This document shows, piece after piece, positions 22,531-62,995 of a stretch of DNA of 64,000 nt. Made by a program: the position numbers and the translations under genes. Positions within the stretch are counted from its first letter, which is position 1, and every line of letters starts with the position of its first letter. The notes under the pieces are model-generated. The model saw nothing but the letters and a program-made list of their open reading frames with translations. It did no database searches and had not been told where the DNA came from. The stretch comes from Crossaster papposus (taxonomy: Eukaryota > Echinodermata > Asteroidea > Velatida > Solasteridae), in NCBI GenBank assembly GCA_037893245.1, contig JBAIAA010000401.1, positions 620,001 through 684,000 on the forward strand, in the 5' to 3' direction.

Positions 22531-22539
22531 AGTACAGAA

Positions 22540-23520: not shown

Positions 23521-23579
23521 TTGTCAATGGAGGATCCAGAAGTGAAGAAGTCAACAGTTCTCAGCACAGTAGCTGGCCT

Positions 23580-34690: not shown

Positions 34691-34697
34691 TCCTTCT

Positions 34698-35468: not shown

Positions 35469-35540
35469 CTTGCGGTATAGATTCTAAGACCTTTCTGCTG
35501 CTACTAATCCACTTCGTCAAGCGGAAACCTCCCATTGCCA

Positions 35541-36482: not shown

Positions 36483-36495
36483 TTAGCCTGTGTTG

Positions 36496-37326: not shown

Positions 37327-40300
37327 AATAAAAAGATTAGATTAGTAGTCAGGTGAAAGTTATTGTTGTTACAGTCACCTCTATATACAATTACCAAGAC
37401 AAACCCATTCACAGTGATTATGTCATGATCTAACGATTAATTAATTAGGCTCCACCACATCCAAGCCTTTCCTGGAAAATCCTCTATGCATTAAGCACTC
37501 AAAAATTTAAAACACATCAAACAAGTTTAATTTCAGTTCTGCATAAGAGATCTCTCTGAAATATTTATTTTTCTGCAAGAATTGTGAGAATCGGTGTTGG
37601 CATTCATGAGATATGGCATTTTACAGATTTCCGATAAGGTCCGAAAACCTGTTCAAAATGGTTAAAAATGTGAAAAATTCAATTTTTCCTGATTTGGGGC
37701 CTTTGTTTGAGTTAAAAGATGAGCAAAAATAGTTTAATACAGCATATTGTTTGACATGTTTACACTCAATTAGGCATTTAAAACCAAAAAAATTTGACCA
37801 AATGTCAATGCTAATTTTTAAAAAATTGTCGAAAAATGAAAATTTCTAAATTTTTGCCATTTGCAGACATGAAATTACTGCAAAAATGACTAAGTCCAGC
37901 TTATTATGCATAAATGGGATAACTCAAGCTGCGATTGGTCTTTTGAGGTGAAATTTGGAATATAGTACAATGGTATGAAGAGCTACTGGATCAGTAAAGT
38001 TTTTTATTAAAACTTATTAATTATGCAAATTAGCTAATTACTAGCTAATTATATATTCATATTTAAATTAGGTACAAACAAATTGTAAATTTTGTCCATC
38101 TTTGTACTTGATGTTTAATGAAATAACCCTCTGAAACATTTCAGCCACATATAAATATGCAAACGAGTCATTTTAAGTCCTTTTAAAAATTAATTTAAAA
38201 TGGATGATAAACACGCCACGAGAGCAACTCGGATCGAGGCCGGAAATATACGTCGATGACCGGCTTACATCAGGCATCTGTGAGTGCTACCTATCAGATG
38301 CCGGCCTCAACCCGCCTGGGTCTGGTCAAAATAATCCCGGCACGAGCTGGTGGTTAATAGTAAAATTTGGGACAACTAATTAAATATGCGTATTCAATTT
38401 TTGGTTTGAAACAACAACAGAAAACACTAGCTTATTTTCTAGCTAATATGGTGTTATTCCGTAGGGCCGGGTTTGATTTTGACAGTCCCGTAATTATTTG
38501 GCAAAGTGTTGAAAGTCTCTAGTCTTCTTAGCTTTGGTGACATGCCGGTTGATGTTTGAAACTATACATCTGGTAGTGGGTTGTTGTAGACCAGGACAAT
38601 CCAGCACTGGAGGATGATTGTCGTTAACTTTATCTGATGTGTCAATGGTGCTGTAAATGGTCTTCGTCAATGAAAACTTGCAAAGGTACAGGTAGGCACT
38701 GGATTGCTGTACCGTACCGGTAATCTGAAATTGGAAGAAATGAATCTTGCATATTGGCTGCTAAATCAGGAAATGACAAACATTTTACCCACTGTATTAG
38801 AACTTGATTAGAAGTAAGATTATTGGAAATTAACAGTTTTATTGGGGAGAATAAAAACCACACGCAACAGCCAGCAACCAACTGCGCATGCTCGAATTGC
38901 ACACAACTAAACTCAAGTCCCCTTAATGTATAACACGGCTTTTATATCTATTAACGTTACTCCCCTCCACGATCTGCCGATCACTTGAGTTTGACCAGTT
39001 TTACTCTTAAAAAGTCTTATAAAATCGCTGTATTTTTACCAAGATTTGTAACCTTTCCACATGTTTTTCTTTTAAATGACTTATGTAACAACAATTATTA
39101 CCTAAAACTTACCTGGGCATTTTCCGTTTTGAAGAAGCTCGATTTCAGTAGCAGTCCAACACGCCATCAAATTCTTTTCTACGTTGCGGTTTTATACGCC
39201 ATGTTTACTAACGTTAAAACAGGTCACGCAGGTCACGCAGAGCCGACACTGATAAAAACTCGAAACAATTTTCGCGCTGATTTCTTAAAATGTTTCTTTT
39301 ATCGGAACGAAAATGTGACTATATCACAAGAAACTGCAGACTATAATCTATCCAACCATAGGTTCGAATTTTTCAATGAATGAATATTTCAGGATTTGTG
39401 GAGCCGTTTCGTACTTGAGTTTCTAGCGGTCAGGACAAAAATTGGAAGCCATGTTTCAGAATTTCGAAGGTGTACTGATACAGTCACGGTCACAAGCTAC
39501 CTTGGGGTGAACGGTCAACCAGATTGGATGAGAGAAACACTTGAAGAAAATTTTTGCAAGGGGTGTTTTCCAGTGCGCGAGTCACAGCGCGGTGCATCTT
39601 TTCACACGTTGTGAGCGAAGTGAAAAACGAACGGTTTATCTAAAACCAAATCAATACTTTCCCAGATTCTAAAACTGTTGTTATTTTGAAGATATACAAT
39701 ATGAAATGTTATTTCTAACCCTGCCTAAAAAGAATTGAAAGATATTGTCATTTTCTATTTTTAACATTTATTTTAAAAACACCTCAAAAATGAAAGTTCC
39801 GGGAACTTGGGTGTTCTGCGCGCGTGGCAGACTCCGCGTGCACGCGTTGTGCTCAGCCTAAAATAATTACAGCGAGATAGTTTTTCCGAAAGATTTTGCG
39901 GTGACAGCAAAACAAAATGGTTTGGGTCTTGTTGAGAGTAATTCTAAGCAGTTCATGCTAAGAACAAAATATTTTTGAAACACATTAAGTTAAATTTAGG
40001 GTGTTTTGCTAAGGTGGCGGCCATCTTGGATTTCAGGCCGTTGGAATGCTCAGAATGGGCTTACCCAAATTGGAGTCACTTCACCACATCTATTGTTATG
40101 CCAAGGACATTTAGCAATGTGTTCTGAGAAGCTACAGTTACGTAATGCGTTGGAGTTAATTTCATTGGCTCACAGAGTAACGTGGGCCCGCCATGTTGCA
40201 CTTCTCGTTCGCGCCGACTCCAAGCTTGAATGGGCAATGATCAAATAGGTAAAGTCACACAAATAGGTAAAGTCACACAAAACGAACATTGGTTATTGAG

Positions 40301-43735: not shown

Positions 43736-43983
43736 AACCGAACATATTCGCAAACTAATGACAAATCATGTTATCGTATATATCTAAGCATATCTGAGAT
43801 GTGGAAGATTTTATTGTAGATTTCTGCACAGATTTATGTGATGGTGAATATTTTCTGGGCAGATTTTTGAAAAGTCGCATATTTTTATTTTAGATTTCAA
43901 GTTCTGCGCAGATTTCATAGTACGCTAATTTGTGCGATGTCGCACAGATGGGCATGCATCTACATGTGTTCTAAAACGGACAG

Positions 43984-46552
43984 ACCGGCAGCCCGCGGAC
44001 ATTTGGTTAGATGAACTAGGTACCAATATCTGACTATGGGAGTGTGTAGGGGGTCACCTGAAATGAATGGAAATGAGAGTCTGCCGGGTACCACCAGCTG
44101 CATGCACCCCTGGGGGACCCCCAAAGTGGTCAAAAACTGGGTACTAAATAGTTGAGCGAGGTACCACTAAAAAATGATGCCAAATGAACAAGTTGAGTAC
44201 AAAATGGGTTACGACAGACGAAAAGACCGCTGCACTACGCGTACCAGACACCCCAAACCCGGACCCTCTACGTCATTTTCTGTGGCTATTTTTAGAAAAA
44301 AGGGGGCAAAAAGTAAAAACCGCTATATATTCACGCAAAAATTCACACCAGTTACTGTTTTTTAGTCCCTAACGGTGAGTTGAATCTGAGAAAATATTAA
44401 CAATGTTTTCAAATGATAATTAATTATGTTGTATGTATATAATATCACTTTAAAATTAACAAGCCACGCCCCTTTTAGGTATTACGCATTTTCCAGCGAC
44501 TATCAGTGCATGTGTTTGGGTGCAAACCAGTTTGAACTTGTAGACCGATGCCTTGCAAACATTTAACATCATTTTAACGATAAATTAGTTGTGGGCGTGG
44601 TTTTTAAATTAACAAACCACGCCGTTTTAGGGGTTTCCCAGATTCTAAACAATACGCATTTTTCACTGCGATTGTTGTATGTGTTTTGGGTGCAAATCAG
44701 TTTGAACTTGTAGACCAATGCCTTGCAAACATTTGACATAATTTTAACGATAAATTAGTTGTGGGCGTGGTTTTTAAATTAACAAACCACGCCATTTCAG
44801 GGGTTTCCCTGATTCTAAACAATACGCATTTTTCAAAGCGATTATTGTTGCATGTGTTTTGGGTGTAAACCAGTGGACCAATGCCTTGCAAACCATTTTT
44901 GGAAATATTGTACACCATTCTTCTGAGAAATTAGTTGTGGGCGTGGCTTTTAAATTAGCAAACTGTGCCTATTTAGGTACATTTCCCTGATTTTAAGCAA
45001 TATGCGCATTTTGGAAATGGGCGTAAATCTGCTTCTACAGTAAAACACCTTTGATATAACAAGGTCCTTTCGGACTTTACAATTACCTCGTTATAACATT
45101 AACAGGTACTCTAACCTTGTATTATCAGTACTAAAATTCTCATTGAGTAAAAGCCATTATCTTCAATTAATAAATACCTAGGAGAGTTTATAGCTTCTGA
45201 TTGGTCGAGACTCAATCACGTGGAGGGCATTATCACGCAGTAATTGACCGGGCTTTCAAAAATTGAAGCAAATTCTCTGTTTTTTCCTAAATAAAAAGGT
45301 ATTTACCAAAGGGAATAACAGGGCGATGACCCGGTCATTACTGCGTTATAATTGACCGGGTTGGGCGATGACCAATCGATAATAGACCTCGCCTTCGGCT
45401 CGGTTCGGCTCGGTCTATTACTGATTGGTCATCGCCCAACCCGGTCAGTTATCACGCAGTAATGACTGGGTCATCGCCCTGTTATTCCCTAATTTACCAC
45501 CAATTGCCTTGCTTTCGCATTAAAAGTATGATGTCGGCATAAATATTAAGAAAGGCGTATGGGTCAGAGGATTCCGCTTACTGAGACTTTTGATATGAAT
45601 CATGCAACATTTTAACTGAATGGAATGGACTGTTTTCAGTCCCTCCCTATTCTTCTGGGGTTTTCCTTCGACCTCTAAAACTGTACCTTCTTCTGATTGT
45701 TTTCTCTCAACAGGTTTCTTCAGGCTTGCGAGCTACAGTGCCTGGAGCGCTTTTGACTATTGAGGGATCTTTGGTTTCAAAACCCAGAAATAATTAATAA
45801 CAGTAATAATATTCTATACTTCTTCATATACAAACACGTGTGCGTTTGTATTACAGTGCGCGTGCTTTCATAGTCAAGGTTAATAGAAAATGTAGGATTT
45901 TTAAAAAGCCACACCCACAACTAACTTCTTATTAAAATGGTGACAAATGTTTGCAAAGCATTGGTCTACAAGTTCAAACTAGTTTGAATCCACAACACCT
46001 ACAACAATAATCGCTGAAAATGCGTACTACTTAGAATCAGGGAAACCCCTAAAAGGGGCGTGGCTTGTTAATTTTAAAGTGATATTATATACATAAAACA
46101 TAATTAATTATCATTTGAAAACATTGTTAATATTTTCTCAGATTCAACTCACCGTTAGGGACTAAAAAACAGTAACTGGTGTTAATTTGTGCGTGAATAT
46201 ATAGCGGTTTTCACTTTGTGCCCCCTTTTTTCTAAAAATAGCCACATAAAATGACGTATAGGGTCCGGGTTTGGGGTGTCTGGTACGCTTAGTGCAGCGG
46301 TCTTTTCGTCTGTCGTAACCCATTTTGTACTCTATGAACTCAACTTGTTCATTTGGCATCATTTTTTAGTGGTACCTCGCTCAACTATTTAGTACCCAGT
46401 TTTTGACCACTTTGGGGGTCCCCCAGGGGTGCATGCAGCTGGTGGTACCCGGCAGACTCTCATTTCCATTCATTTCAGGTGACCCCCTACACACTCCCAT
46501 AGTCAGATATTGGTACCTAGTTCATCTAACCAAATGTCCGCGGGCTGCCGGT
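43984..46552. mobile_element. 2.57-kb foldback element with about 480-bp TIRs
   Basis: It starts ACCGGCAGCCCGCGGACATT and ends with the reverse complement. Homology between the arms continues for about 480 bp (43,984-44,465 and 46,065-46,552). The interior has tandem copies of a 120-180-bp unit with GTGGGCGTGG and AACAAACCACGCC (44,465-45,000) and a nested hairpin (45,310-45,490). There is no transposase. The undisturbed target is visible in the right giant arm, where GGACAG continues into AACGTCGTGG. Confidence 0.88.
45310..45490. repeat. 181-bp palindrome nested in the foldback element
   Basis: AGGGAATAACAGGGCGATGA at the left matches TCATCGCCCTGTTATTCCCT at the right. The arms pair through GACCGGGTTGGGCGATGACC. 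The loop region is CGCCTTCGGCTCGGTTCGG. CACGCAGTAATTGACCGGG also occurs alone at about 45,235-45,253. Confidence 0.9.
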
Positions 46553-46886
46553 CTACGTCGTGGTTCAACTGCCAAAACGTCGTGCGCTTTTACCTGGCTC
46601 AAGGTAGCCGCGTATTCGGCCGGATCTCTCCGCGCGGATTCAGTCCGCATTCACCAAAAGCCGACAAATATTTAATACATGCTGCAAAATGTGATGCATT
46701 TTCTAAAAAGGTTTATGTCAATTTATTTAAAGAATTTTTCAAAATAAACCGTAAATATAACAATACCTTTTTAAACCCTTTCAAATCATACAGCATTAGC
46801 CACACTTGTTTAACCTTTCCTATAATTTTGATGACAAATTACAGTTAAATTAGCTGCCTTATGAAAGTAATCCTACTTCGAGTTAT

Positions 46887-47667
46887 TTTTATAGATTTAG
46901 AAATGAGAATGCAACATTTAAAACAAAATATACTTCACATGTTATCAAAAACTCATACTTTTATTTCATAGTCTACAAGATAATGTTACTGGACAAACTT
47001 AATGTCGGTATAGGCTTCAGCCGAACACTAATTAGTGCCTAATTAGCCCGTTAAATAAATCCCCTTTTCAATGCAGCATTGTAACGCGTTTTTCGGCTGC
47101 GAGTATAAACAAAGTGTACTGTTATTCAAACCTCATATTTGTATTTCATGATCTACGAGATCATGCTTCTGGGCACACTTAATTTTGGTATAGGGCCTAG
47201 GCTTCAGCCGAACAGTAATTAGTGCACTCGCACTCGGTTGGGCTTATGATTCGCAATGTTCTCGGTGAATCAGTTTCGTCAATCAACAATTTCAACAATT
47301 AATTTCACCACGCCAGATTTTATGAGAACGATAACTGTTACTTTATTTAATAACACAACAGCCCTTTAACTAAGTTCTGCATCATTAGATGGATCCTAGT
47401 AGTTTGTCAGCTTAGATCGTTAAGTAAAAGACGGTTTCAGACCGTGTCCATAATTTGTTTTATTTCCACCTAATATCGCCCCATAATTCTTTGCGATATA
47501 TAGCACACTTGGGTCAAATGTAAGTTTCTAAGGTCGCATGCAAATAAGCAGATATTATCAAAACTACATAAAATGTAAACAGAGACCAAAGGTTATCAAA
47601 ATTAGCATATAAAAGAATCTTGGACACTCCGTACTGCCACTCGTGCTTGAAAGAACACTTGCCAGAT
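46887..47667. other. Interior of the giant inverted repeat, no gene seen
   Basis: AT-rich. A direct pair of about 100 bp is visible: the TACTTTTATTTCATAGTCTAC ... AATTAGTGCC block at 46,955-47,040 is echoed at 47,135-47,225 (TTGTATTTCATGATCTACG ... AATTAGTGC). Confidence 0.55.
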
Positions 47668-48395
47668 CTAGGGTGACGCGGGAGCGTCACGCCCAACGGG
47701 TTCGCCCGGCTGGGAGTGGCAGCGCCGCGGCACACTTACTTTGCCAGTGCACCGATTTTGCGTTAATTTTATTCTTCTTTCTTCTTTCTTCTTCAGTCCG
47801 ACTGGAATAACTCGCGATCGCTCCACGGAATCGAAAAGAACCCAATAACGAAAATGATCAGGAGATCAAGGGCATGAGTTCTATTGGGACAGAATATTGA
47901 TTTTCGACTTCTCAGAGGGGGTTGTCATACGAATCTGACCATCTGACAATGACAAAAAAAAATGTGAATGAATTTCCTCAGTTCGACGACAGAGGGGGTT
48001 GTCATACGAATCTGACCATCTGACCATCTGACATGTGAATGAATTTCCTCAGTTCGACGACAGAGGGGGTTGTCATACGAATCTGACCATCTGACATGTG
48101 AGGGTGACGCTCCCGGGTTCGCCCGGCTGGGAGTGGCAGCGCCGCGGCACCCTTACTTTGCCAGTGAACCGATTTTGCGTTAATTTTATTCTTCTTTCTT
48201 TCTTCTTCAGTCCGACTGGAATAACTCGCGATCGCTCCACGGAATCGAAAAGAACCCATATAACGAAAATGATCAGGAGATCAAGGGCATGAGTTCTATT
48301 GGGACAGAATTTTGATTTTCGACTTCTCAGAGGGGGTTGTCATACGAATCTGACCATCTGACATGTGAATTTCCTCAGTTCGACGAAAACGGCAC
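47668..48395. repeat. Direct duplication, about 430-bp period
   Basis: GGGTGACGC ... GTTCGCCCGGCTGGGAGTGG and everything to CAGAGGGGGTTGTCATACG recurs with the second copy starting near 48,100. Inside, a 65-85-bp phrase (AGGGGGTTGTCATACGAATC ... TTTCCTCAGTTCGACGA) is further repeated at 47,917, 47,993, 48,064 and 48,331. Confidence 0.85.
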
Positions 48396-49424
48396 TAAAA
48401 GCATCTGTGAATGAATGCATTCCTAAGTGAAACTCGGTGCAAGAATGTGTGATATTTCTTGCGTTTTTGTGAGTTTCGGGCGTTTTAGCATTTGCTAGTG
48501 TCAGTGCGCATGTACTGCGCAATTGTGCGGCGTTGTTTGCAAGTGTGCGCTGCGCAAATGCCGCCAAAACGCTTGCGCACACAACCACAAATTTCAGCTC
48601 TGGTAATAATTTTCGCTGTCTGAATCGCTTCAAATTATCGGCAATTTCGGTCAATTCTGTGTTTCTGTCTAACTTTCTTGCTTCTGCCGCAATTTTGTTT
48701 CATTTCCTGCTGAAAATTGTCAAACTATTTCGCTTTTTTGCAGCAGTCACAGTGTGCCCTTTGTAGTGAAGCACAACGGCAACTTGACGCTGGACAATAT
48801 CATCACAATCGCAGACGTTCGCCGATGACAACGACGACGCCGACTCGCAGGAGGGGGGGGGGGGGAGGTTAAAAAAAGTAACAAAACACCCGAAATAACG
48901 AAGCTAAAACGTATTTTGGCTTCAAAAGTGACCAATTTAGACAATTAAGACAGAAACAACGAAGTAGCATTGACTAGTGCTATCTCCTCACAGGGTAGGA
49001 GCTAATGGGTATACGGAGAACAATGTAATAATGGTGTACAGTACTATATAGTATATACATACTAGTAGCCCGTAGGTCTGTGGCAAGACGCAACACCGTA
49101 GGTCTGACGGCAATGTAGGCTGATTGGTTTATTTAGAGTCGGGTAGGTTAGTAGATGGGCTCGACTAACTGTAACGGGTGGTTCTGTTCTGTGTGGGAAC
49201 AACGTGTACCGAGGTGTCAACTTGCATCTATACTCAACAACCGTTTGCTGTTTGTTCGCACATCGGCAAACTTACATTGTGTTTTTTTGCAGGTTTCCTT
49301 CGCTCGGAATCTACGCATCGATTTCCGGGCACAACAAGCGATAGACGATTGCTTGTAAGAGGTAAGAGAAAAAAACGTAAAAAACCCTTCAAAACAAAAA
49401 CAAAACACAAAACTAAAAAAAATA
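48396..49424. other. No recognised gene; upstream of the GC-rich frame
   Basis: Contains a G run (about 48,852-48,866) and a doubled phrase, CCCGTAGGTCTG / CACCGTAGGTCTGACGG, near 49,070-49,110. An acceptor-like TTTTTTTGCAG lies at 49,284-49,294. The 120 nt before 49,425 are A-rich. Confidence 0.4.
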
Positions 49425-49967
49425 ATGGCGCGCAGTGCGGCCGACAAGCGACGGCCGCCCAAGGCGTCGCCGCGTCGCCGACTGCGTCGCAAACCCTACG
49501 GGGCGCGGGAGAGTGAGCTGCCACTCGTCGACAGCAGCCAGTCGCAGTACACTAGCGACGCGTACGAGATACAAGCGCACATGCCCAAGTCGCCCTGCGG
49601 CGACAACACCGGGCCGCAGGCGGCGCATCGCGCGCGGGCGCACTCGTGCTCGCGCGATAGGGCGCATAAGATCAATCGGCGTCGGCGCAGTCACTCCGCG
49701 CAGCCACGCGACGACACGCGTCCGGCCCAGCACGTGCAGCTGCTCTACACGCAGTTCATGCACATATGGCTGGACGCGCGTCGCGACCGCATGGCGCGCA
49801 TTCCGCGTCGAAAGCGACGCCCCAAGTTCCATGCGCCGGCACCGCTCACCATCACCAAGCGAGAGAGTGAGCTGACACTCTGCAACAACAGCCCGCCGCA
49901 GTACAAGGGCACCTCACTGCCGCACAAACAGAAGTGTGCCGGCAAGTGCAGCCAGCTGCCCTCCGAG
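49425..49967 (+). CDS. Unrecognised Arg-rich protein, 5' part (interrupted)
   Basis: An open frame from the ATG at 49,425 through 181 codons to the insertion point. It is GC-rich (about 60% against about 40% around it) and very basic, with Arg clusters (SPRRRLRRKP, NRRRRSHS, RIPRRKRRPKF). Two degenerate internal repeats are visible: RESELPLVDSSQSQY and RESELTLCNNSPPQY. I recognise no family. The frame ends only because a transposon inserted at 49,968 supplies the stop. It continues in the same frame after the insertion (50,777-51,097). It could be a captured host gene or a gene of the giant element. The GC and codon contrast suggest different ancestry from the flanks. Confidence 0.5.
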
Positions 49968-50768
49968 TAGACTTGATCCAAGTCGGGATTATGTGGTAAC
50001 ATTGCTCATGGTCATCCACACTGTGCGCCTCGCGTCACGTCCACGCTTATCAGTAGCGCGCCCTCATGCGCCACCCATGCTCATGTGTGGTTCAGAAATC
50101 CCGACTTGACGGATCTGCCACACGTTTTTACACAACCTATGGGCTCATCTACCGAAAACGGTAGCGGCCAATCAAATTGCAGAATTGTATAAATTAGCAT
50201 ATATCTGTAATAATATGAACTTTGACCCAGTTGTGTGACGGACATACGTGGACATTGTGATGTACAATGTACATACACATGTGCATAGTGTACATTATGT
50301 GTAAATGTACAAACGGTTTAATAGTCTTGCTATCGTGTACATTGTCCGGCCGTTAAGTTTGCACTATACCATACTCTAACTAAATAAACGAAGTATGGAC
50401 GCAGTTATTTAATTTGAAAAAGGCATCTAGTGACAGTACTGCCTACCATTCCTCCATAGTCCGTTAGCGGTCTAGCCAGTCCGTACCGATTGGCGGACTT
50501 ATTTGGCATGCATCGATAACCATGTGATGCGTATGCAAATAATTTATGAATAACTACATATCACCGCGGGGGGTTTGATTGGCCGATCCGTCAAGTCGGA
50601 TTTACTGCACTGACATGATGACATCGCGTTGATGCCGATAGCGGAACGACAACCAGATGACGGCGCCTTTTTTCTAAGGCCAACAAAGCACATAACTATT
50701 CGGCCGGATTGACGAAAGCAAATTGGTAGTCTTAACTCCATGGTAAGTCCGACTTGGGTCAAGTCTAC
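49968..50768. mobile_element. 801-bp TIR transposon with 8-bp target duplication
   Basis: The left end TAGACTTGATCCAAGTC is mirrored at the right end as GACTTGGGTCAAGTCTA(C). CCTCCGAG flanks both sides (49,960-49,967 and 50,769-50,776), an exact 8-bp duplication as made by hAT-type elements. There is no transposase, so it is non-autonomous. It interrupts the Arg-rich frame. Confidence 0.88.
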
Positions 50769-50776
50769 CCTCCGAG

Positions 50777-51097
50777 TACATTTGCGCGCGCCTCTACGCG
50801 GCATACGAAAAAATGCGCCGACTGCGCACGCACAAGCGGCGTATCGCCCGCCTCTTCAAAGAGGATGCGCAGTGGTGGGCGCACACGGGCGTCAAAGCGC
50901 TGCTGCCGGCGAGTACACAAAAAACTCCACATCTGGGCAATCGGCCGGGGGAAGGCGCTCGCTCGACTATAAACAAAACCCCCCGGACGCCAGATGTGGA
51001 GTTAGTCGAGCGATTGGGTGAGGGACTGCACCCGATGATCCCGAGCCAAAAGCGCGCATGCAAACTTCTTACTGTTCAAACACAAGCTACTAAATAA
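50777..51097 (+). CDS. Unrecognised Arg-rich protein, 3' part
   Basis: Continues the frame of 49,425-49,967 after removal of the 801-bp insertion and one copy of its target duplication. It stops at TAA (51,095-51,097). About 106 codons remain, with a basic segment (KMRRLRTHKRRIARLF) that loosely echoes RMARIPRRKRRPKF of the first part. The GC content stays high up to about 51,050. Retention of an open frame on both sides suggests that the insertion is recent or that the interrupted state is not long-standing. Function is unknown. Confidence 0.5.
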   Translation, partial: YICARLYAAYEKMRRLRTHKRRIARLFKEDAQWWAHTGVKALLPASTQKTPHLGNRPGEGARSTINKTPRTPDVELVERLGEGLHPMIPSQKRACKLLTVQTQATK

Positions 51098-51964
51098 AAG
51101 GAAGTGGACAAGTCAAAGGTAAAATGCTCTGAGAGCATAATAAAAGGGCCAACGGGTTTCCAGTTAAAGTAAAATGCTGTGCGAGCATTCCAGCTAAAGT
51201 AAAATGCTGTCTCAGCACTGCACTCGCGTCAAAAAGGAAGTGGACAAGAGAATGCCAACGAGTTTTACCTCTTACCCCCCCAACAAGTGCAGACCGAGCG
51301 AAAGGTCAGCAGGTGTGGGCCACTAGTTCGGTGTGGGCGGGTCGAAACCGTTGCCCTCCCACCGAGCAGTAGATGTTAACTGGTTAGCACCGTACCGTAA
51401 TCACTGCATTTATTTGCATACACTAATGCTGGTGGGTCATCGTAAGATAGCCATTACGGCTTGGATGGAGTTCAATTTTGGTTTTGCGTTGCTATAAAGA
51501 GTACTATCACCAATGTTCGATATACGCTGCGCGCTCTCCTGCACTGACGACACTGTCTGAGAGGTCCTAGGTGCCGCTATGCACGCTCTTCTACTCTGGC
51601 GCATACTAGCTACGCCCATAATTCTACACTACACCCTCCAGCTAGCCCAAGACACTTGACAGCCTTCGCTCCGCTTTGCATGCACATCTGCGCCGGCGTA
51701 CTTTCAGCATCTGTCAGTTACACCTAATGCATGAGCGCCTGTGCCTGCATAGGGTTGCACTTCCTACACTGCAACAGGTCATCACGTCGGTTGACAATGA
51801 CAATTCTATTTAGCACCGCCTTCTTCTTCTCCGCCTTTAGACCGTACCACCGTACGTAGCTGTGCCTTGCGCGCATTTGTCTCACAAACGCTCGCAAATA
51901 CACAGCGAACGCACGCTTTCTCTCATTCATCCGACACGTGTGCCGATGTCACCTTGCTTCATTA

Positions 51965-52039
51965 GTAAACTATTTGCATCGCCGCAATCGACCAGTGCTC
52001 AAGATTCTACATTGTCTTAGGTATGGGGGTAAGAGATTT
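51965..52039 (-). repeat. Split direct repeat B2 (3' terminus)
   Basis: The 75 bp match 52,245-52,319 (B1) with one or two changes. At the outer edge GTAAAC is followed by TATTTGCATCGCCG, the half-site seen at the inner palindrome. Confidence 0.9.
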
Positions 52040-52186
52040 GAAAGTAGAATCCCGAGCCCTGTACAGCGACGTGGGAGGGAGGGCGGGAGAACATATTATA
52101 TTCTAGGCCAAACTGAAATGAACATACTTACATTTCATGGAGCTAAAGCGCGTATCCCGACTACTGTCCTGCTCATCCCCGGACCG

Positions 52187-52319
52187 GCCAACATCGCGAC
52201 TGATATAAAATCATTCGCCCATGACGAAGGCGGCGATGCAAATAGTAAACTATTTGCATCGCCGCCATCGACCAGTGCTCAAGATTCTACATTGTCTTAG
52301 GTATGGGGGTAAGAGATTT
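52187..52319 (-). repeat. A2-B1 junction with palindromic candidate recombination site
   Basis: A2 (52,187-52,244) matches A1 (62,257-62,314); B1 (52,245-52,319) matches B2. At the junction two 16-bp perfect inverted half-sites, GGCGGCGATGCAAATA (52,229-52,244) and TATTTGCATCGCCGCC (52,251-52,266), flank the 6-bp spacer GTAAAC. This is the architecture of a tyrosine recombinase core site (two inverted arms and a short crossover region). Confidence 0.85.
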
Positions 52320-52780
52320 TCTTTCCGAGCCCCCGATACTTACGATAAACTCAACTTAAACGCACCTTTCCCCATATCTCACCCACCCCTCACTCATTTA
52401 AAACTTAGAGTTTGCTGCAGACAAATACGTCGAGCACTGCCTAAACAAAGCTGCTGGTAATCTAATGAATCAAACCGTCGTACCTCCTTTTCATAGCTAT
52501 CTATTGTATAGGGCCTGCAATTTCGCGTCACTCTTTGTGTAAAACGTTTGGTTGACAATTAACTTGCAGCGGAGCTCTCGACTGGAGCATGCATATGCGT
52601 TACAAATTACATGGTCTAGTATAAATCAAATGGTCAGTGACCCCATTTAGGGCGTGGGTCATATACGGGTTTACATGTGGTTGCCAGGCCATTCCTGCAC
52701 CCTAAATCCTAAAGCCCGTGCGCCCACGCGCCTAAAGAACAGCTAATAAATGGATGCGTCCATAGAACTATTCCACACTA

Positions 52781-54033
52781 TTAATTTATTCCCGGAAACG
52801 CCTTCTCGGCCCTAAAATTTGAGTTCAGGACACGGTAGGAACTGCCTGCCAGATCAGCGGTAGGACGGTCTTTGTCTTTCCCCTCTACCGCGTCCCGGAG
52901 CATTTGAACTGTGCCCTGCATCCTCGAAACCTTCTCGACCTCGGTGTAGTGCTTAAAGGTCTTCTGCGTCGCCCATTTACGATGATCCATGACCCGCTGC
53001 TCGGTTGCGCCAAGGATCCGAAGAGTAGCTGCCACCCCGGTCCTATTGCCGTGTGCTCGGAGACTTTGTTCGCCTACGTCCTTGGAAGCTGCGAAGTAGT
53101 TTTTTAGACGGCTGTTTGGGTTGCCTCCGATGAAGGGCTTATTGACTAAAGACTTCCGGTCCGGAAAGGCGGGCCTGAAAAGGTACCCGTCTGAAAGATC
53201 GACACCCGATGCCGTTGCTAAATCCACCATTTCCTCGACTGCCCTCGCATGGTCCATCTCCCCTTCATCCAACTTTGGAATTATTATGAGCGAGGAGCTG
53301 CTCTCCCGGATAGTCTTGCCAATCGTGTGATTGAACAGAAGCTCCCTGCCATCGACTTTAGTGACTTCACAAGTTTTTCCAAGACCGAGGTCAGCCGCTC
53401 TGTCGCCAGCCCACCATAGGCAAAGAAAAAAGGCCAGATCACGGAGCAGGATATAACGGTAGACAAAGCAAGAGCTTACGCTGCTCAGATCAGCTAGCCG
53501 CTTCCTTATCTAATTGGCCAACCACCTTATTTTGTCCGAAAATATAGGGACGGCCTGGTGCGGTGTAACATGCGCTTCTGCCTGCTCTACTCTGATAGCC
53601 TTTACGTATTTACGAACTCGAAAAGAGATGCAGGGATTGCCCAGGATGTGCCCTGCCGCCAAGGCTGAGTCCAACCTACAGAATTGAAGTACGCTCTAAG
53701 CTGTGCTACGTAGGAGTCAACCGTTCCAACCGCAAGACACCGCTGACATCCACAATCGAAGAACCCGTGCTTTCCGAAATTCTTGCAACCAAGTATATGA
53801 ACTCTGTCAATCAGAAAAGCCACTATGTTGTTCGGTGCTGCCGTATCCAAATCTAGACCTTCAGTACAATAAACGGAGCAGTGATTTTCTTTTAGGAAAA
53901 CATCCAAACTTCTAGCCAGACTCTTCTTCTGTTTGCTGTATGATGAACCGTCCAGGCGCCCATCCAACTCACGCAACCTCGTCGCCATGTGAATAAGCTT
54001 CAAAAGAAAGCAAATTTGAGAACTGGTTATCAA
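52781..54033 (-). pseudogene. Ngaro tyrosine recombinase, one frameshift and one amber stop
   Basis: The N-terminal DNA-binding part (53,602-54,033) begins near ATRLRELDGRLDGSSYSKQK and includes LDLDTAAPNNIVAFLIDR and GTVDSYVAQLRAYFNSVG. The catalytic part (52,781-53,508) has the first Arg in LWWAGDRAADLG (about 53,400), the HxxR motif in RAHGNRTGVAATLR (about 53,043-53,053) and the tyrosine in FKHYTEV (about 52,948). All key residues are therefore kept. A one-base frameshift near 53,645 and an in-frame TAG at 53,510-53,512 separate the two parts. In this class the recombinase integrates a circular cDNA without an integrase. Confidence 0.82.
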
Positions 54034-55072
54034 AATAAAATAGCCCCCGCTCCGCGGGCAACAGCTAACCTTTTATCGGAACTGCAACGCCCGATCGACG
54101 GTGCCCTTATCATTTGCAGTTTCCGGTGCAGCTTCAGCATGCCCCAGACTGTCAGGTGAACATCATCCGCCAAGCCTTGCTGCGTGATGTAGTCGTTTGA
54201 CAAAAAATGCCAACCCGCTGCTTGGCACCTCCGCCTTAATTCGACAGTAACAACAGCTACCGACCGGTGGACAGAACTCAACCTGGTTTGACAAACTGAC
54301 GACATAACAAACCGGCACTCTGGGAATTGGTTCCTTAACCACTTGGAGGCTGTCCCAAATACCCTCAATAGACCAGACACCCCAGGCGCGCAAATATCCA
54401 GTCTGCTGAAGTCACTTGTGCCTCCGTGTAACACTGCAACACTTGGGACCTGAGATCTGCAAGCTGATGCTAAATTTCGGCACAAAATGTCCATCTTTGC
54501 GCCCCCTGCCACCTTCATACTAACCTGCAAAGATGACGGCCAACTAAAACCGTTTAGCCCCTTAAACATGGAGTCCGCAAAAATTAGGACTGACTGTCGC
54601 TCTGGAAGTTTCACTTCCCTGATCATGGTGCCGCCGCCAGGGAAGATACACTTGAATGCCCACAACTCAAGGGGAATGCCATTGGCGGCTCTCTCGTAGC
54701 CTCGTCTCGAAGGGTACACCAGGGCCCCAACTTGCCCTCGTTTGGCCAAACAGACAGACTGTACCGCGAAGGACTTCAATTTAGGCCACCAAGACCTCGG
54801 ATGAGAATGCTTTGGAACCACCATAGCCACTGTAACATTTCCCCATTCGCAGAAAAACCTGATGAGAGCAGGATTCAAAACAAACGGGGGAAAACATACA
54901 GCTGTTCTCCTCGCGGGCACTCTTGTGCAAATACATTAACGCCAGCCGAACCTAGGACTGGGTATCGAGAAAAGAACCTGAGTGGATTCCCATCATATCC
55001 TTTTGGCAAGTTGGAAGGCAAGGCCATAAGATCAAATGTAAAACCCGCTGGTCCATCCAGCAAGCTCTTTCT
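54030..55072 (-). CDS. Conserved linker plus SGNH-hydrolase-like domain
   Basis: The frame 54,030-54,920 and the piece before it. The first part (FDLMALPSN, RYPVLGSAGVNVFAQ, YVFPPFVLNPALIRFF, HPRSWWPKL) is the linker that follows RNase H in Ngaro/DIRS elements. The second part looks like an SGNH/GDSL esterase: block I as VLIFADSMFKG, block III as VAVLHGGTSDFS, block V as DDVHLTVWGMLKL with the Asp-x-x-His pair. Its role in the element's cycle is unknown. A frame change near 54,905-54,920 joins the two parts. The SGNH segment itself is open. Confidence 0.7.
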
Positions 55073-55073
55073 G

Positions 55074-55111
<38 letters not shown>
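55073..55111. repeat. 39-bp poly-A run inside pol
   Basis: On the + strand an uninterrupted run of about 39 A (poly-T/Phe on the coding strand) lies between RNase H and the linker domain. A run this long cannot be part of a working enzyme. It may be an expanded run, the scar of a retroposed tail, or an assembly artefact. Confidence 0.85.
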
Positions 55112-55114
<3 letters not shown>

Positions 55115-55950
55115 AGATGGACGACAGCAGCCTGGCATCGGCAAAAGAAATCTCCCTAGATGGGGCGTCAGCCATGTTGTCACTGGAAGGTATCCATTCG
55201 AGTTGCAACGCAAAATTGGCCCCCAGGATCAAAGCAAATATAAGCTTTGGGACTTGCACTAGAGCTACAGATCTGGCCCTCAAACCAATCCATGCATGAT
55301 ACGAACTCTGAGAATCAACTTTGACCTTGACTCTCCGATCCCACAGGTGGTCAATGACCAACAACAAAACAAAATACAATGCAAAGGGCCTCCTTGTAGC
55401 ATATGTCTACAATGCACTGTACGTCCGGTGGCCAATAATCACCAAAGAATATATTGCCGGTATGCTGCATCAACACGCCTCCCCATCTGTAGCCAGATGC
55501 GTCTGAGCTGAGATGTACATTTACATGCCGCTCTTGCTTCCAAGGAATGGGCTCAGAGAAGGAGTCTACAAAACGCCAGAAGGGTATTTCTTCCCGAACC
55601 GACTCTGCAAGAGTAAGGGGGTGACGTCATCAAGCTGGCACATAACGGAGCAGCACCCCCTGATATACAATGATGCTGCCGGGAAAACTAAAACAAAGCT
55701 CTGACACTTGCCAACAAAACGCTGCATTGTCTTCAGTAAGACAGTGTTGTCTGTTAAGATTCCCTCCCTCAATTCAGCAGAGGACACCCTCTTTTCGGGA
55801 ATTCAAAGGACATACATTTTGAGCAAATCCCCAAACCCAGGTGGACCATACTGGACGTTGGCTGAAGCTGGCTTTTGCCGAGATTCACAAAATACCCTAG
55901 CTGCATTTGCATGTAGCAGACTGCATACAAGGCCGTTGATGGTTCATGTA
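55115..55950 (-). pseudogene. pol: Ngaro RNase H and RT connection, broken
   Basis: On the minus strand, the connection after RT (LGYFVNLGKSQLQPT-like, near 55,850-55,900) is followed by RNase H with LSSDASGYRWGGVL (about 55,480-55,530), KVKVDSQSSYHAWIG (about 55,270-55,320) and LEWIPSSDNMADAPSREIS (about 55,140-55,200). Several stops occur (for example near 55,620 and 55,375). Confidence 0.72.
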
Positions 55951-56957
55951 GGCCACCTCATGTGCATTGGCAGTGGCTGAAAACAATATAAAATGAAATT
56001 CTATAAACTATTGTGCGCCTTTTCCAACCATGCTGCTACACTGTCCAATGAATCGATCATCTATCCATATTTCCGTGTGAACGCCTCTGTTCTTCAACCA
56101 TGTTGAGAGACAAAACCCGATAGTGGTGTAAATAAATGCGCTATTCTTAAACCCGAATGGAAGCGTGGTATCCACAAAATAAAAACCTGCCCACTCGAAG
56201 CCGCAAAAGGTTTTTGACCTTTGAGACGACTTAACTTGTTTATGTCCCTGCGCATCATCGGTCCTTGAAAAAAAGGCCATCCCTATCGATTGATTTCACA
56301 ATATCTCCTAGGGGAACCAGGTTGAACGGAGTATCTGTACACCATAGGTTTGGGCCCTTCATTGACAGCACCAGCCTTGGCTTGATCGGCTCCACCGACA
56401 AAGCATTAATGCATCTTGGAGGAGTGACCTCATCGACCGGCCCTAGAAGCTCCACTGATCCCTCTATGATACGCTTAACGATGGCTTCGTTAATGAAGCT
56501 CACGTACTGCTTACAGTTTGGAGCGTTCGCAAAATACATGGATGGCGGAACATCAGAGTCAAAGAACCTTCCCTTGTACTCCCCTTGGTAATGACGGAAA
56601 CATTCGAATATTTCGACCCCTCGTCTGAGCCACCGTTGAACACGGTGTCCCACGTGACCACATTCTGATAGGATCTCCTCCCAGGCGTCAGTAGTACGGT
56701 TCAAGCCACCCGCAACAAACAAAGTGGGATCTCGAAAACGGAGAGCTCTAAAATCTGGCTGACAATTTCCTGCTAAAACATGTACCGGGTCGGGAGCATA
56801 CCCATCTGGTGCATCGGCCTGTTTGCCGGATATGTCTACCCAGGAGCAAGCACCCTCGTCTCGCTTACTATTCTGTGCCTTGACTGGGTCAAAATGATGA
56901 CTCGATGAACGCTCCCACGTATGCGTGCTCAGGACGCCCATGTATGTTTTGTAAGCC
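55951..56957 (-). pseudogene. pol: Ngaro reverse transcriptase, frameshifted
   Basis: The exon-like start follows an acceptor, GCTTTTCTTCACAG (minus strand, about 56,958-56,971). The frame carries ALSVEPIKPRLVLSMKGPN, WCTDTPFNLVPLGDI and, after a one-base shift near 56,265-56,275 in a run of A, FFSRTDDAQGHKQV, FYFVDTTLPFGFKNSAFIYT and the active site EIWIDDRFIG (about 56,050-56,080). The Asp pair is intact. The block YFANAPNCKQYVSFINEAIV is the conserved region ahead of RT in this group. Confidence 0.78.
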
Positions 56958-57190
56958 TGTGAAGAAAAGCACAGCAAAATGCCACAAAGGGGAAAACAAA
57001 ACATTCAATCAAGCTTAATGCCTGCATACTCTTTATTCTTCTTCTTTCCTACTAAGGGAAATCACTTTTTCTCACGACAAACTCAGAGTGCAAATCCGAG
57101 ATCCTGTAACATGTAAACTAAGCAGATAATATGCTAACGATACATTTGGTGCATTAAGCTAACACTGACTTCCCAACTCTTGTTTCTACA

Positions 57191-57681
57191 TTATTTCTCT
57201 GCACTCTCGCGCAAGGTGTCCCCTTTTTGGCACCGAAAACACGGGCCCCGAGATGCATTGCTTCGGGCACCCGACGGAAAGGACAGGCGAGACTGCTGAC
57301 CGCCAAACAGACCCCTGGGACGAAAACCTTGACGTCCCTGTACCTTAGCCCTGCCTCTGTGTACCTCCGAAGGTGGAGCACTCAAGCCCAGTTGTTTTCG
57401 GGCAAAACACAGGCGCTTGTCTGAGTCCTCCCCGGTAATAGACTTATAAATATACATAGCCACACCCTCAGTTTTGGTTTCAACGTGTTTCGTGCATTCC
57501 GACAGAAGATTAACATAAAACTGTTTCTCCTTTGCATCTTCAGACGTAAGTGGTGCAAATTCATCGATGTACTTGCGCAACAAGGACATGACGTAGGCGA
57601 CGTTGGAGTCATAACCGGTTTCAGTACTATAAATATGTCGCAAAGTCATTCCCATCAGACACTGGTCACACACAGCGTTTT
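57191..57681 (-). CDS. gag: Ngaro gag, second coding block with zinc knuckle
   Basis: It starts after the acceptor TTCACATCATCACAG on the minus strand and is open to the stop at 57,191. It contains TLRHIYSTETGYDSNVAYV, a helical region (PLTSEDAKEKQFYVNLLSEC), an RG-rich stretch (RGRAKVQGRQGFRPRGLFGG) and a knuckle start, CFRCQKGDT, that is cut short by the stop. RG-rich and Cys motifs support nucleic-acid binding. The phase does not fit the exon at 60,577 directly, so a middle exon or an indel is implied. Confidence 0.6.
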
Positions 57682-58009
57682 CTGTGATGATGTGAACCCG
57701 TGGTGATGTAAACTCAGTTCACCAACAGCAAAGTTTTCCAACTTTCGCAATTTTCTGCATAAAGTTGCGACAAAATTCAAACTGATTGAAACCAAATGTA
57801 GTGCTACATCCAAAACCAGTTCACCAAAATGAACTCAAAGCGAAACTCCAAAATAAGTTCACGACAGCAAAGTTTTTAAGATTCCGCAATTGTATGCATA
57901 AAGTTTGCAACATTCAAACTTGCAAAATTCAAACTGATTGAAACCACACTTCGTGCTACCTCCAAGACCTCAAGCGCATAAAAGTTAGTCGATTTTATGT
58001 CGATCCTGC

Positions 58010-59640
58010 TTACATACAGCCACGAGCCAATTTAACATTATGTAGGCTACACTTATACACGGCCTTGAGCCCAACATCTTGCTTGCACACGGCCCCAAGC
58101 CAAATTAAAACTCTGCAGACTACACTTTTACACAACCTTGAGCCAATTCCGCTCTGCAGGTTCTGTGTTGAAATCTTGCTTGCACCCAGCCTCGCGCCAT
58201 TTTAAAATTCTGTAGGCTACCCTTATATAGCCTTGAGCCAATTTACCGCTCGGCAGGCTTTGTATCAGCATATTACTTGCACACACTACAATAATGTGAT
58301 AACAAATTTGTAACTGCTTACTCGCAGCCTTGAGCCAATTTACCGCTCTGCAGGATTTGTATCAGCATATTACTTGCACACACTCAATTAATGTGATAAC
58401 AAATGTGTAACTGCTTACTCGCAGCCTTGAGCCAATTTACCGCTCTGCAGGCTTTTATCAGCATATTACTTGCACACACTCAATTTATGTGATAACAAAT
58501 TTGTAACTGTTTACTCGCAGACTTCAGCCAATTTACCGCTCTGCCGGTTTTGTATCAAGCCTCGAGCCGATTACAGGCTCCACAGGCTATGCGTACAATT
58601 GTGAGCCAACATGCTTACACACGGTTTTAGGCCAAATACCTCTCCTTAAGCTACACATTGATTTGTGAACGACTCGCTTACACATGGCCTTGGGCCAATT
58701 CTCGCTCCTCAGGCTATGCATTAAGGATGGCAACTTGCTTACACACGGCCTTGAGCCAATGTTAACACCTCAGGTTTCTACCTTGATATGCGAATAACTG
58801 AACGACTTGCTTACACATGACCTTGAGCCAATTACCGCTCATTAGGCTGTACATTAATATGTGAACAACTTGCTTACACACCATGCACCTTGAGCCGATT
58901 ACCGCTCATTTGGCTGCACACTGATATGTGAACAACTTGCCTTCACACGGCCTTGAGCCGATTACCGCTCATTAGGCTGCACACTTATGTGAACAACTTG
59001 CCTTCACACGGCCTTGAGCCGATTACCGCTCCTCAGGCTGTACCTTGAATGTGAACAAACTGCTGACAAGTTACACACGACCTTGAGCCGATTACCACTC
59101 CTCAGGCTGTACACTGATATGCGAACAACTTGCCTTCACACGGCCTTGAGCCGATTACCGCTCCTCAGGCTGTACCTTGATATGTGAACAACTTGCTTAC
59201 ACACGACCTTGAGCCGATTACCGCTCCTCAGGCTGTACCTTGAATGTGAACAAACTGCTGACAAGTTACACACGACCTTGAGCCGATTACCGCTCCTCAG
59301 GCTGTACCTTGAATGTAAACAAACTGCTGACAAGTTACACACGACCTTGAGCCGATTACCGCTCTTCAGGCTGTACCTTGAATGTGAACAAACTGCTTAC
59401 AAGTTACACACGACCTTGAGCCAATTACCGCTCCTCAGGCTGTACATTGATATGTGAACCAACTGCTTACACACGGCCTTAGGCCGGATACCGCTTCTCG
59501 AACTGCACATTGATATGTTAACAACTTGCTTACACACAACCTTGAGCCGATTACCGCTCATCAGGCTGTACCTTGAATGTGAAAAAACTGCTTACACACG
59601 ACCTTGAGCCAATTTCCGCTCGGCAGGCTGGAATGATATA
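58010..59640. repeat. Tandem repeat array, 65-95-bp units (CCTTGAGCCGATTACCGCTC)
   Basis: About 20 diverged copies of ACACGACCTTGAGCCGATTA ... CCGCTCCTCAGGCTGTACC, becoming regular (about 69-72 bp) at 59,010-59,450. The left end has older copies of the form CAGCCTTGAGCCAATTTACC. A single related copy lies at 60,443-60,480. The array sits between the two recognisable gag coding blocks. Confidence 0.9.
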
Positions 59641-60576
59641 CCAAAGCCAGATTTCAAACTGGCCCTTCGACAACCATGACCTTATAACATGCTCTTCATA
59701 TTGATTTATGTGCCTATGCCTAACCAGACCACCCGGCCTGCCTGATGTTTCAATACTAAATTCATGTGTCTGAAAAACAAAAATGTGGCTGCGATAACCT
59801 AAAAAATAGGACGGCTGCCAAAACCGTATCACGTTCGATTCCAATCAAATCAAAAGTCCAATAAGATATTACTACGGTAACACTATTTAGTGAGATTTGT
59901 GGTTCTTTTAAGGAGGATACAACAATTGCGAACATCGAAAAATAAAACTCCTAATGACTATGAAAATATGCGGGCTATATATATAAACATATATAAAAAT
60001 ATAGATAAACCATCATTAGCGCGACCGGTCCATAGAGACGCACGCAAAATTTTTGGTTTTTATTTGTAACCTAACCCGTTTTTACCTAGAGCTTTTGCCA
60101 CAAATTAAAAAACCATTAGGATAATGTACCCAAATCTATCGACATATTCAATAAAATTTAAAAAAAATCATTTTATCGAGTACTTGGGCGCTCGGACGAC
60201 CGGCAAACGGTCGTCCTAACGACGGTGGTCGTCGCAATACTGTACAATTACTGCGAATGGTCGCTCTAAGCGCGCATAGTCAAAAAATATAGTTTTTTGT
60301 TTTCTTCATTTAACACGACAAATTCTAAAAGGTCAGTGCAACAAAACCTACTATACAAAACACCATTTCAATTCATTTTCAAAGAATTCCGACAGAACGA
60401 ACGATCATTCCCCTTAACTAAAATATTAACAGGACTACCTCTTGCTAACCTGGAGCCATTTCACCGCTCTTCAGGTTCGTGGTCATCGACTATAATATGT
60501 CGGATACCCAACGCCTATTAGGACACATTTTCTTTGTTAAAGAGCTTCGTCGGTTTTATAATAGTAAAAGACTTTA

Positions 60577-60860
60577 CTTACTTGGCCTTTGAAACTGCAG
60601 CATCAAGAGGCCCAGCATCCACCCGATCGAGCATCATCTCAATATTGCGCTTCTGACCGCCGTCAGTTTGGGGCGAGCGCCAACACGTGATCTTTGCATG
60701 AAGGACTTATATCCTTAAACTTACTCGGGTCGTCCCAGCCGTCCCCTACTAGACGCTCAAAACATGGCGCCGAAATCCTGAACTTGGCGCAAAGGCCACG
60801 AAAGATCTTCGTGCATGCCTCCCCAGCTGCCCCATACGCCTCCTCGCTTTCCTATAAAGT
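60577..60860 (-). CDS. gag: Ngaro gag, first coding block (frameshifted)
   Basis: On the minus strand it reads EEAYGAAGEACTKIFRGLCA, VGDGWDDPSKFKDISPSCKD, and, after a one-base frame change near 60,655, GGQKRNIEMMLDRVDAGPLD followed by AAVSKA, to a donor, CCAA|GTAAGT (60,571-60,576). No ATG is obvious. Composition and position (5' side of the element, before the zinc-knuckle block) support a Gag N-terminal segment. Confidence 0.5.
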
Positions 60861-62256
60861 GGAAAATCAAAACTTGGCTAATTAAAACTCGATAATGTCA
60901 TTACAGTACAAAATTCCCCTCTAAATAGCTATAATACCTTCAGTCTTCAGTTCACTATTATTCCTCGAGGAAGTGAGTAATTAGGCCAACACGTATTGTA
61001 AGGACTGCACAAGGGGCAAAATCACCCAACCAAAAATGTTTCTAATATTTCTTGCCAAACCTATGCTGAGAATATTCCGAACATGCCCCGCGGCGTGAAT
61101 GCACAGCAAAGTAGCCGCGCAAAACGGTCCGACCAACCGCGTAACGAGCAGTGCGCGATATCCTTTTCAACAAGTTGCGCGGACTTTGTATGTACAAAGG
61201 ACACGAGGGGCTATAGCACGTTTGGACGTGATTTAGGGGTGAGCAAAGGCGGTCTTTAAGACTAAATCCGTGGGCCGCACTCCCACGCAGACTGGCTAAA
61301 CAATTTTTTTTTTTTTTTTTTGTAAAGCCACCGTTGTCCTAATTATAGAAAATAATACAAACAAACCAATAGCCAAAACTGGGCCATTTTTTTATTTTTT
61401 TTATATATATTATTGTTTTGCTTGTTTGTTTTACAAGAAAAAGAAAGCCGAAGGGTTATTGCACTCGACTGACGCGTATGGTACTGACGCGTACTGAATG
61501 CACGACCTTAACCTTGCGACAGTTTGCTTTAAAAATATATATATAAAAAAAAATATATAGGGCCTATATATAAAAAATATATTGAATCTTTCCAAAGTCT
61601 TGCCTATTAAAGCCTTTAATAAAACCATAACAGGGCAATATCATGCGCCAAATATTAGGCGGACTCACCTCTATAACATCGGGTGTCACGCTAATCATGG
61701 ACGACCAGCGGAATATCTCTATTTTTCAAATTGTAGGTGCCTGCCCGGTTGGCCGTGCACCGCACTACTCACGAATGATACCGGTAATACCGCACCACGG
61801 TATTCGCGCTTTAATTAAACGAATGCCTTAGGCCTCACCCTGCTCAGGTAAAAGGGTGGGAAACAAAAGCTTGCATGTCGAATCACCCGATTGACAACAA
61901 AGGCTTTATACGTGCCCGCTCAAGCTGCCAGCCTCAAAGTCATTTGAATCACGTCACCTGCGTCTGGTGACGCCTGTGATAAACATTTACCGTACTGGGT
62001 CAATGAGATCTCCCGGCCTGCGCGCACCTTATGTGCTATATATTGCCATAGCTCTAGCGATAATTCTTTCCTCAAAAATGAAAGAAATCCAAACCATACC
62101 TTCAAATCCACGAATCCAGAGCTGTGGAACCATACAATACAAAAGAGAAAACCTCACAAACCGTTATGCTCGTAACTAAAACCACGGGGCCCTTGATTCC
62201 CTGTGCAAATCCTGTATAACCGGGAACAGATCTATCGGACACCCAGCTGCGGTCCC
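60861..62256 (-). other. 5' leader region of the Ngaro-like element
   Basis: Non-coding on inspection. It contains T-rich and (TA)n stretches at 61,302-61,322 and 61,385-61,570. No regulatory motif could be assigned. Confidence 0.4.
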
Positions 62257-62314
62257 GCCAACATCGCGACTGATATAAAATCATTCGCCCATGACGAAGG
62301 CGGCGATGCAAATA
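62257..62314 (-). repeat. Split direct repeat A1 (5' terminus)
   Basis: Matches A2 with a few changes, ending in the same half-site GGCGGCGATGCAAATA. The next six bases are CTCAAC instead of GTAAAC, so this terminus has a different spacer, probably derived from the target. Confidence 0.85.
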
Positions 62315-62995
62315 CTCAACAACTTTTGCACGGAAACATGTGAGCGCCAACAGCAGCATACTTACTACTTGATACACAGCGCGCACAGAGCGGGTAAGAA
62401 GTGAACTTCACCGTGGGCCCACAGCGCGCGTCGAGATTATCCGTTAATAAGCCCATTATAAGCTTATTTATCAGCTCGTACTCATCCGCCCTATCACGCG
62501 AGCACGAGTTATTGTTTACGCGCCGCCCATTTCGTGCCAGTTATTCAGCTACGTGACCACCGACCGCGTTACATAGCCGGTGATCGCCTTCCCACTCTCT
62601 TGCGTTGCGGCCTTCTCTCTCTCGCAGAGAGTGCAGCGCTTTCCCCTCCAATGCGTGTGTCTCTCTCTCATTGGCTCATTGAGTCGGTGCTTTAGACTAC
62701 CCGATTATGAGTCCATGCTGCTATGGGAGGAGGGGGCGAGGTGGGAGGGCAACGGTTTCGACCCGCCCACACCGAACTAGTGGCCCACACCTGCTGACCT
62801 TTCGCTCGGTCTGCACTTGTTGGGGGGGTAAGAGGTAAAACTCGTTGGCATTCTCTTGTCCACTTCCTTTTTGACGCGAGTGCATTGCTGAGACAGCATT
62901 TTACTTTAGCTGGAATGCTCGCACAGCATTTTACTTTAACTGGAAACCCGTTGGCCCTTTTATTATGCTCTCAGAGCATTTTACCTTTGACTTGT

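Follow-up and report, generated by a model that had tools for sequence, protein, structure and literature searches.

The window, a stretch of 64,000 nucleotides of the Crossaster papposus genome, contains a GC-rich and Arg-rich open frame at 49425..49967 (+ strand). The frame has 181 codons and probably codes for an N-terminal portion of a RepHel transposase. It terminates at a TAG supplied by the next feature, a DNA-transposon-like insert at 49968..50767 (+). The insert is 800 bp long and without coding match, and its two ends match each other as terminal inverted repeats (TAGACTTG...CAAGTCTA). Copies of the 9-bp target-site duplication CCCTCCGAG lie to its left (49959..49967, +) and to its right (50768..50776, +). 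An earlier sequence-only reading of this DNA had described an 801-bp transposon with an 8-bp duplication; the insert and the duplication are real, and their sizes are those given here. After the insert, the plus strand continues with a putative further part of the transposase N-terminal region at 50777..50911 (YICARLYAAYEKMRRLRTHKRRIARLFKEDAQWW...) and with a short-form tail at 50912..51097, which runs across an internal-deletion junction and ends in KLLTVQTQATK and a stop. All these features lie within a Helitron-type element at 47667..62994 (+). The element consists of approximately 4.98 kb of its own and an inserted 10.35-kb retroelement (51962..62311, - strand; edges from uninterrupted copies), which we take to be an Ngaro-like (tyrosine-recombinase) element.

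The frame at 49425..49967 has the composition of coding DNA. Its GC content at the three codon positions was 0.646, 0.558, and 0.818, and none of 5000 Markov shuffles matched this periodicity. A plus frame of at least 179 amino acids was present in 16% of 5000 Markov shuffles (DNA of 67% GC), so the openness of the frame is weak proof alone. The sequence-only reading had noticed a coding-like frame with a composition foreign to its surroundings, and both observations were confirmed. It had also named no matching family, and the profile search agreed: Pfam gave weak matches below the curated cut-off for the first piece (SKI, 0.82) and for the second piece at 50777-51097 (NKAP, 0.11). Neither piece matched PDB sequences, PHROGs, or NCBIfam, and the comparison of both with viral_contigs gave zero confirmed matches. 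The first piece, searched without the second, had no match in phage records and prokaryote genome contigs, and no match among the Helitron proteins in Pfam or PDB. Internal repeats had been reported; the RESEL...QY motif does occur twice in the Arg-rich piece, and blastp of the piece against itself gave no match beyond the full-length one. A single-sequence AlphaFold model of the first piece was mostly of low confidence (mean pLDDT 58.5, pTM 0.23), and the helix at residues 99-124 was its sole confident part.

The genome itself (1.02 Gb, 1841 contigs) was searched with the first piece. The search gave 621 candidate places, of which the best 150 were scored. Residues 1-181 were matched at 98-100% identity in all 150 scored places; 141 of these had no stop within the match and nine had one. 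Twenty copies were taken with 10 kb each and 20 further copies with approximately 2.1 kb, which makes 41 with the window; one partial copy was dropped. The results placed the frame within a Helitron-type element of high copy number, and the earlier idea of a single host gene of unknown family had to be abandoned. The sequence-only reading had further proposed that the lack of any homologue and an unconserved frame would mark a chance frame. The first piece has homologues in all 150 scored places, and the second piece is largely not conserved as a frame.

The insert is shared by all 41 copies. For this reason the interruption is not, as had been supposed, something special to this one gene. Its first base is identical in 41/41 copies, and therefore the insertion, judged from the sequences, is most likely older than the expansion of the copies. 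The left duplication reads CCCTCCGAG in 40/41 copies and TCCTCCGAG in one, and the right duplication was located in 39/41. Three variants were observed directly right of the insert (50776-50790 and equivalent positions): TACATTTGCG in 17 copies, TACATTGCG in 14, and GACATTTGCG in eight, with two of the 41 in which none was found. These may be subfamily markers. Outside the Helitron, the insert was not found in the 64-kb window or in the 20 ten-kb loci.

Splicing of the insert was considered as well. A total of 87 GT-AG pairs are compatible with both frames, and the best-scoring pairs, which take their donors from the two RESEL motifs (49512 and 49866) and their acceptor from 50862, would also cut out coding sequence. 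Exact splicing-out of the insert together with one duplication (809 bases) was rejected, with 0/87 pairs. Because no pair removes these 809 bases, the insert is unlikely to form an intron on its own; a larger intron around it would still be compatible with the sequence. Introners resemble the present case in that a transposon-like insert with a duplication occupies a site within a coding frame and is passed on in many copies. They differ in that the insert here lacks exact GT-AG removal, brings an immediate stop codon, and was found within the Helitron only (window and 20 loci).

Counted arithmetically, the two pieces keep the register across the insert (181 + 106 codons), as had been claimed for a coherent frame of about 287 codons. 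One base is missing directly after the right duplication in 14/41 copies, which frameshifts the second part, and of the 38 copies where the stretch could be located, 10 have the 106-codon tail of the window and two more, L040 and L025, have shortened versions of it. The joined frame is therefore not a family-wide protein, and the register is the part of the claim that stands. The GC periodicity of the second piece was 0.12, a value reached by 15% of shuffles and thus not significant, and the GC3 of its last 17 codons was 0.18. In many copies the alignment breaks at 50911/51062, and other forms of the element carry different sequence at 50912-51097. Among the 41 copies, 14 have the short form of the window, 17 are longer, and 10 are without the inverted arm in the 2.15 kb taken. 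Several long-form copies (L035 at 1357-2001, L017, L020, and others) carry an Ala/Pro/Arg-rich piece of approximately 131 amino acids before the shared end KLLTVQTQATK. This piece probably represents the C-terminus encoded by the same transposase frame; Pfam gave no match for the tail of L035, the one long form scanned. At the short-form junction lies a quasi-palindrome (50925-51001), which may be a mark of how the deletion arose. As DNA, the stretch 50925-51040 had a fold z-score of -3.95, and 0/200 shuffles folded as well.

The edges of the element were obtained from the alignment of the 20 ten-kb copies with the window, and its inner edges from the uninterrupted copies L009 and L011. The 20 copies align to 47667-51945 and 62311-62995. 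The 10.35-kb retroelement is missing from 18/20 copies, in which the sequence runs through the junction; at the same point, L019 holds another 1.6 kb and L027 is without the stretch. The unit measured 4.8-5.9 kb in the 11 copies that have both ends and are free of long insertions, and that of L010 was 6.8 kb, including 1.4 kb of other DNA. L014 and L015, approximately 6.9 kb apart on contig C866, have an identical 3' flank. Since the flank is shared, they are probably a segmental duplication instead of two insertions.

At the 5' end (47667..47690, +), the element begins with TCTAGGGTGACGCGGGAGCGTCAC after a host A and forms a hairpin of 18 nt at 47673-47690. Outer 5' ends, chosen by eye as the outermost start per locus, were found in 17 of 21 loci, and all 17 read A|TCT with the host A (AGGGTGACGC...); L009, L015, L018, and L021 had no such end in the DNA examined. 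Direct repeats at 47670-47948 and 48092-48363 (94.6% identity) belong to the 5' region (47670..48363, +), and their number varies between copies. The 3' end (62740..62994, +) contains the 15-nt palindrome ATGCTCTCAGAGCAT at 62965-62979, which stops 15 nt from the end and is similar to the canonical one but somewhat shorter and further in. The last bases are GACTTG, followed by a host T. This end was GACTTG|T in 15 of 17 scored cases, L010 and L023 read GACTTT, and four of the 21 loci gave no 3' end. The canonical CTRR is thus replaced by CTTG in 15/17 scored ends. Inside the element, the 3' end is repeated in inverted orientation at 51108..51363 (-); this internal repeat is 99.6% identical to 62740-62995 and is found in other copies of the element too.

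The sequence-only reading had placed the frame inside a giant inverted repeat. Its inner arms, 51108-51363 and 62740-62995 (256 bp), proved to be the element's own 3' end and the inverted internal copy of it, and the outer inverted arms (81% and 94%) are external to the element. The apparent giant repeat therefore results from the internal 3'-end copy together with these outside repeats. Self-comparisons of the window gave no inverted repeat that pairs both element ends, at thresholds that miss pairs under approximately 40 bp; end-pairing repeats of 12-15 bp were looked for by eye only.

The copies L022 and L012 sit in tandem arrays, so that empty sites are visible in the neighbouring units. 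With at most two mismatches per 14 bases, the flanks of L022 were found joined at offset 0 in 43 places and those of L012 in four. Joins at offsets -2, -1, +1, and +2 were absent for both copies. This test covered two of the 13 copies whose two ends had been joined; a weaker spanning match connects L014 to L025 (81%). Because the empty sites join at offset 0 only, the element inserts between A and T without a target-site duplication at these two sites. Such insertion with such ends is Helitron behaviour by definition (PMC5148889, PMC4067079).

The link to a transposase comes from one of the 41 copies, L047. In this copy the frame after the insert is unaltered, reads YICARLYAAYEKMRRLRTHK, and then enters helicase sequence. 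Pfam recognised Pif1_2B_dom (4.2e-8) and UvrD_C_2 (6.8e-7) in the frame, that is, the C-terminal part of a helicase only. The GC content by codon position in the helicase piece was 0.621/0.407/0.845, close to that of the first piece, and the 20 codons of L047 before the join, which the window shares in frame as the first 20 codons of 50777..50911, gave 0.55/0.45/0.80. GC3 is thus 0.82 in the first piece, 0.80 before the join, and 0.845 in the helicase. An in-frame join of the parts has a one-in-three chance by accident. Since the high GC3 shifts to another frame after position 1960, L047 seems to be frameshifted further downstream. Compared with viral_contigs, its helicase had Pif1 relatives at 43 loci, with 31-64% identity in the best segment. 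Because the frame runs on into the helicase with similar codon usage, the most likely reading of the Arg-rich stretch is that a transposase frame begins with it and closes with a Pif1 helicase. From these sequences, it would most likely be the N-terminal part of a RepHel transposase kept in internal-deletion derivatives.

We therefore believe, with a probability of about 0.78, that the feature is what remains of the N-terminal coding part of a RepHel transposase, carried by a non-autonomous element of Helitron type that multiplied recently. The full-length ancestor would have carried the Arg-rich N-terminus, an HUH nuclease, and a Pif1 helicase in one frame. An 800-bp DNA transposon would then have inserted after codon 181 and left the 9-bp duplication as its record. 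Internal deletions would subsequently have taken out most of the frame and given the short form, the long form, and the L047 form. These derivatives may have been copied in trans by an intact RepHel, with A|TC at the 5' end as its recognition site and the 3' hairpin as its stopping point. The last step, in the copy of the window, would be the insertion of the Ngaro-like element downstream. In the Helraiser transposase, the N-terminal domain is required for single-stranded DNA binding (PMC4778049). By analogy, this would suit the Arg clusters here, and the Arg-rich part may once have bound DNA in the same way; the earlier guess of nucleic-acid binding was to this extent sensible. In the present copies it is most likely a passenger. 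Several points speak against this reading: the 3' end is CTTG and not CTRR, L047 is the sole link (1/41), its helicase is nearer to cellular PIF1 than to Helraiser, the Arg-rich piece resembles no Helitron protein in Pfam or the PDB, the L035 tail is without a Pfam match, and neither an HUH (Rep) domain nor an autonomous copy was seen among the sequences compared.

Canonical Helitrons (Helitron1; Helraiser/Helibat1) share with this element the A|TC 5' junction, a palindrome near the 3' end followed by a host T, duplication-free insertion between A and T, a Pif1-type helicase (here in one form), and, by analogy, an N-terminal region that would bind DNA. Their 3' end is CTRR, whereas here it is CTTG, and their palindrome has 16-20 nt and lies approximately 11 nt from the 3' end, compared with 15 nt and 15 nt here. 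Unlike them, the present element also has a hairpin near its 5' end and an inverted internal copy of its 3' end. Its helicase, in contrast to that of Helraiser, is closer to cellular PIF1. Helitron2/Helentron and their non-autonomous HINE/DINE-1 elements are similar in the hairpins near both ends, the internal repeats, the high copy number, and the Pif1-like helicase. The target of Helitron2/Helentron is T|T or TTTT|T, whereas the empty sites of L022 and L012 give A|T. The asymmetric or subterminal inverted repeats by which Helitron2/Helentron ends pair had no counterpart in the self-comparisons of the window, at thresholds that pass over pairs shorter than about 40 bp.

The element could instead have captured host genes, an Arg-rich gene and, in another lineage, part of a PIF1 helicase, with neither derived from a transposase. 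Capture of gene pieces is known for Helitrons. The L047 helicase matched cellular PIF1 chains (1.2e-22) better than Helraiser (8e-7), and because of this nearness the capture of a host PIF1 stays conceivable. However, the L047 open frame spans the N-terminal region into the helicase with similar GC3, the N-terminus is common to all forms, and the end KLLTVQTQATK is common to the short and long forms, as deletions predict. We regard such capture as a minor possibility.

It is doubtful that the 181-codon frame is still used, as the source of a short protein that binds DNA and acts as a helper or repressor of transposition. Truncated transposases of other elements can play either part. The frame has no indel in its 543 bp across the 41 copies, its pairwise divergence is 0.84% compared with 1.53% in the insert, and most scored copies (141/150) are without internal stop. 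However, the copies were chosen by their score to the Arg-rich protein itself, which favours intact frames; for this reason the low divergence and the lack of indels cannot be read as selection. The variants in the first piece comprised 18 synonymous, 34 non-synonymous, and four stop changes, and an early stop interrupts the frame in 4/41 copies. Ka/Ks, which the sequence-only reading had put forward as a check, gave a crude value of 0.68 for the first piece, where the synonymous share was not significantly raised over neutral (p = 0.16), and 0.93 for the start of the second, a value blurred by frameshifted copies. The 41 copies thus gave no significant sign of purifying selection on the first piece. 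The mostly low-confidence model of the protein also argues against a retained function. A retained short protein is compatible with the origin from a transposase, and the confidences given to these readings are not exclusive. In a bolder version, which we consider speculative and quite improbable, the insert itself freed the 181-residue N-terminus, and the non-autonomous Helitron family retains and propagates it as a DNA-binding protein, either a helper that brings the intact transposase to the family's own copies or a repressor. If this is true, the family carries a transposon-made truncated regulator at a minimum of 150 sites.

The reading as a host gene, of unknown family and interrupted by a transposon that splicing removes, is very improbable. 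The coding-like periodicity, the register across the insert, and the GT-AG pairs that join the frames with loss of coding sequence would suit it. Against it stand the at least 150 near-identical dispersed copies, their constant position in one mobile element (20 studied at length), the lack of any pair that removes exactly the insert and one duplication, and the second piece, which is not conserved as a frame. A chance GC-rich open frame, for which the frequent openness of shuffled DNA of this composition might be quoted, is practically dismissed by the codon-position GC pattern, absent from all 5000 shuffles and similar in the L047 helicase.

With the transposase remnant as the preferred reading, what was supposed to be an orphan gene becomes a family of Helitron type that multiplied recently, ends unusually in CTTG, and repeats this end internally in inverted orientation. 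At each copy, the open 181-codon frame could be mistaken for a gene during annotation. Experiments have long been without an isolated active Helitron, and a reconstructed ancient element was used instead, according to PMC4778049. If an intact partner exists, the present family is a candidate recently active Helitron.

The window as a whole has no Rfam match at the gathering score and no tRNA. Within the Ngaro-like retroelement, a match to the ALOG domain (2e-6) was found at 53605-54072, and the neighbouring frame at 54033-54935, which Pfam did not match, resembles by eye an SGNH hydrolase. More retroelement frames lie at 4953-7506, 22522-24185, and 33399-37341; by eye we take them to be DIRS-like and BEL/Pao-like. 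The frame at 19837-20496 carries AGDVNLNPGP, presumably a 2A-like motif as known from marine-invertebrate non-LTR elements. At 11302-15671, a degenerate 15-16-bp repeat (of the GCCAGCCCAACGAGA type) forms long arrays that are partly open in several frames. A fold-back element at 43982-46554, with inverted arms of 0.6 kb (91% identity), lies inside the outer inverted repeat 43758-46888 / 63171-63939.
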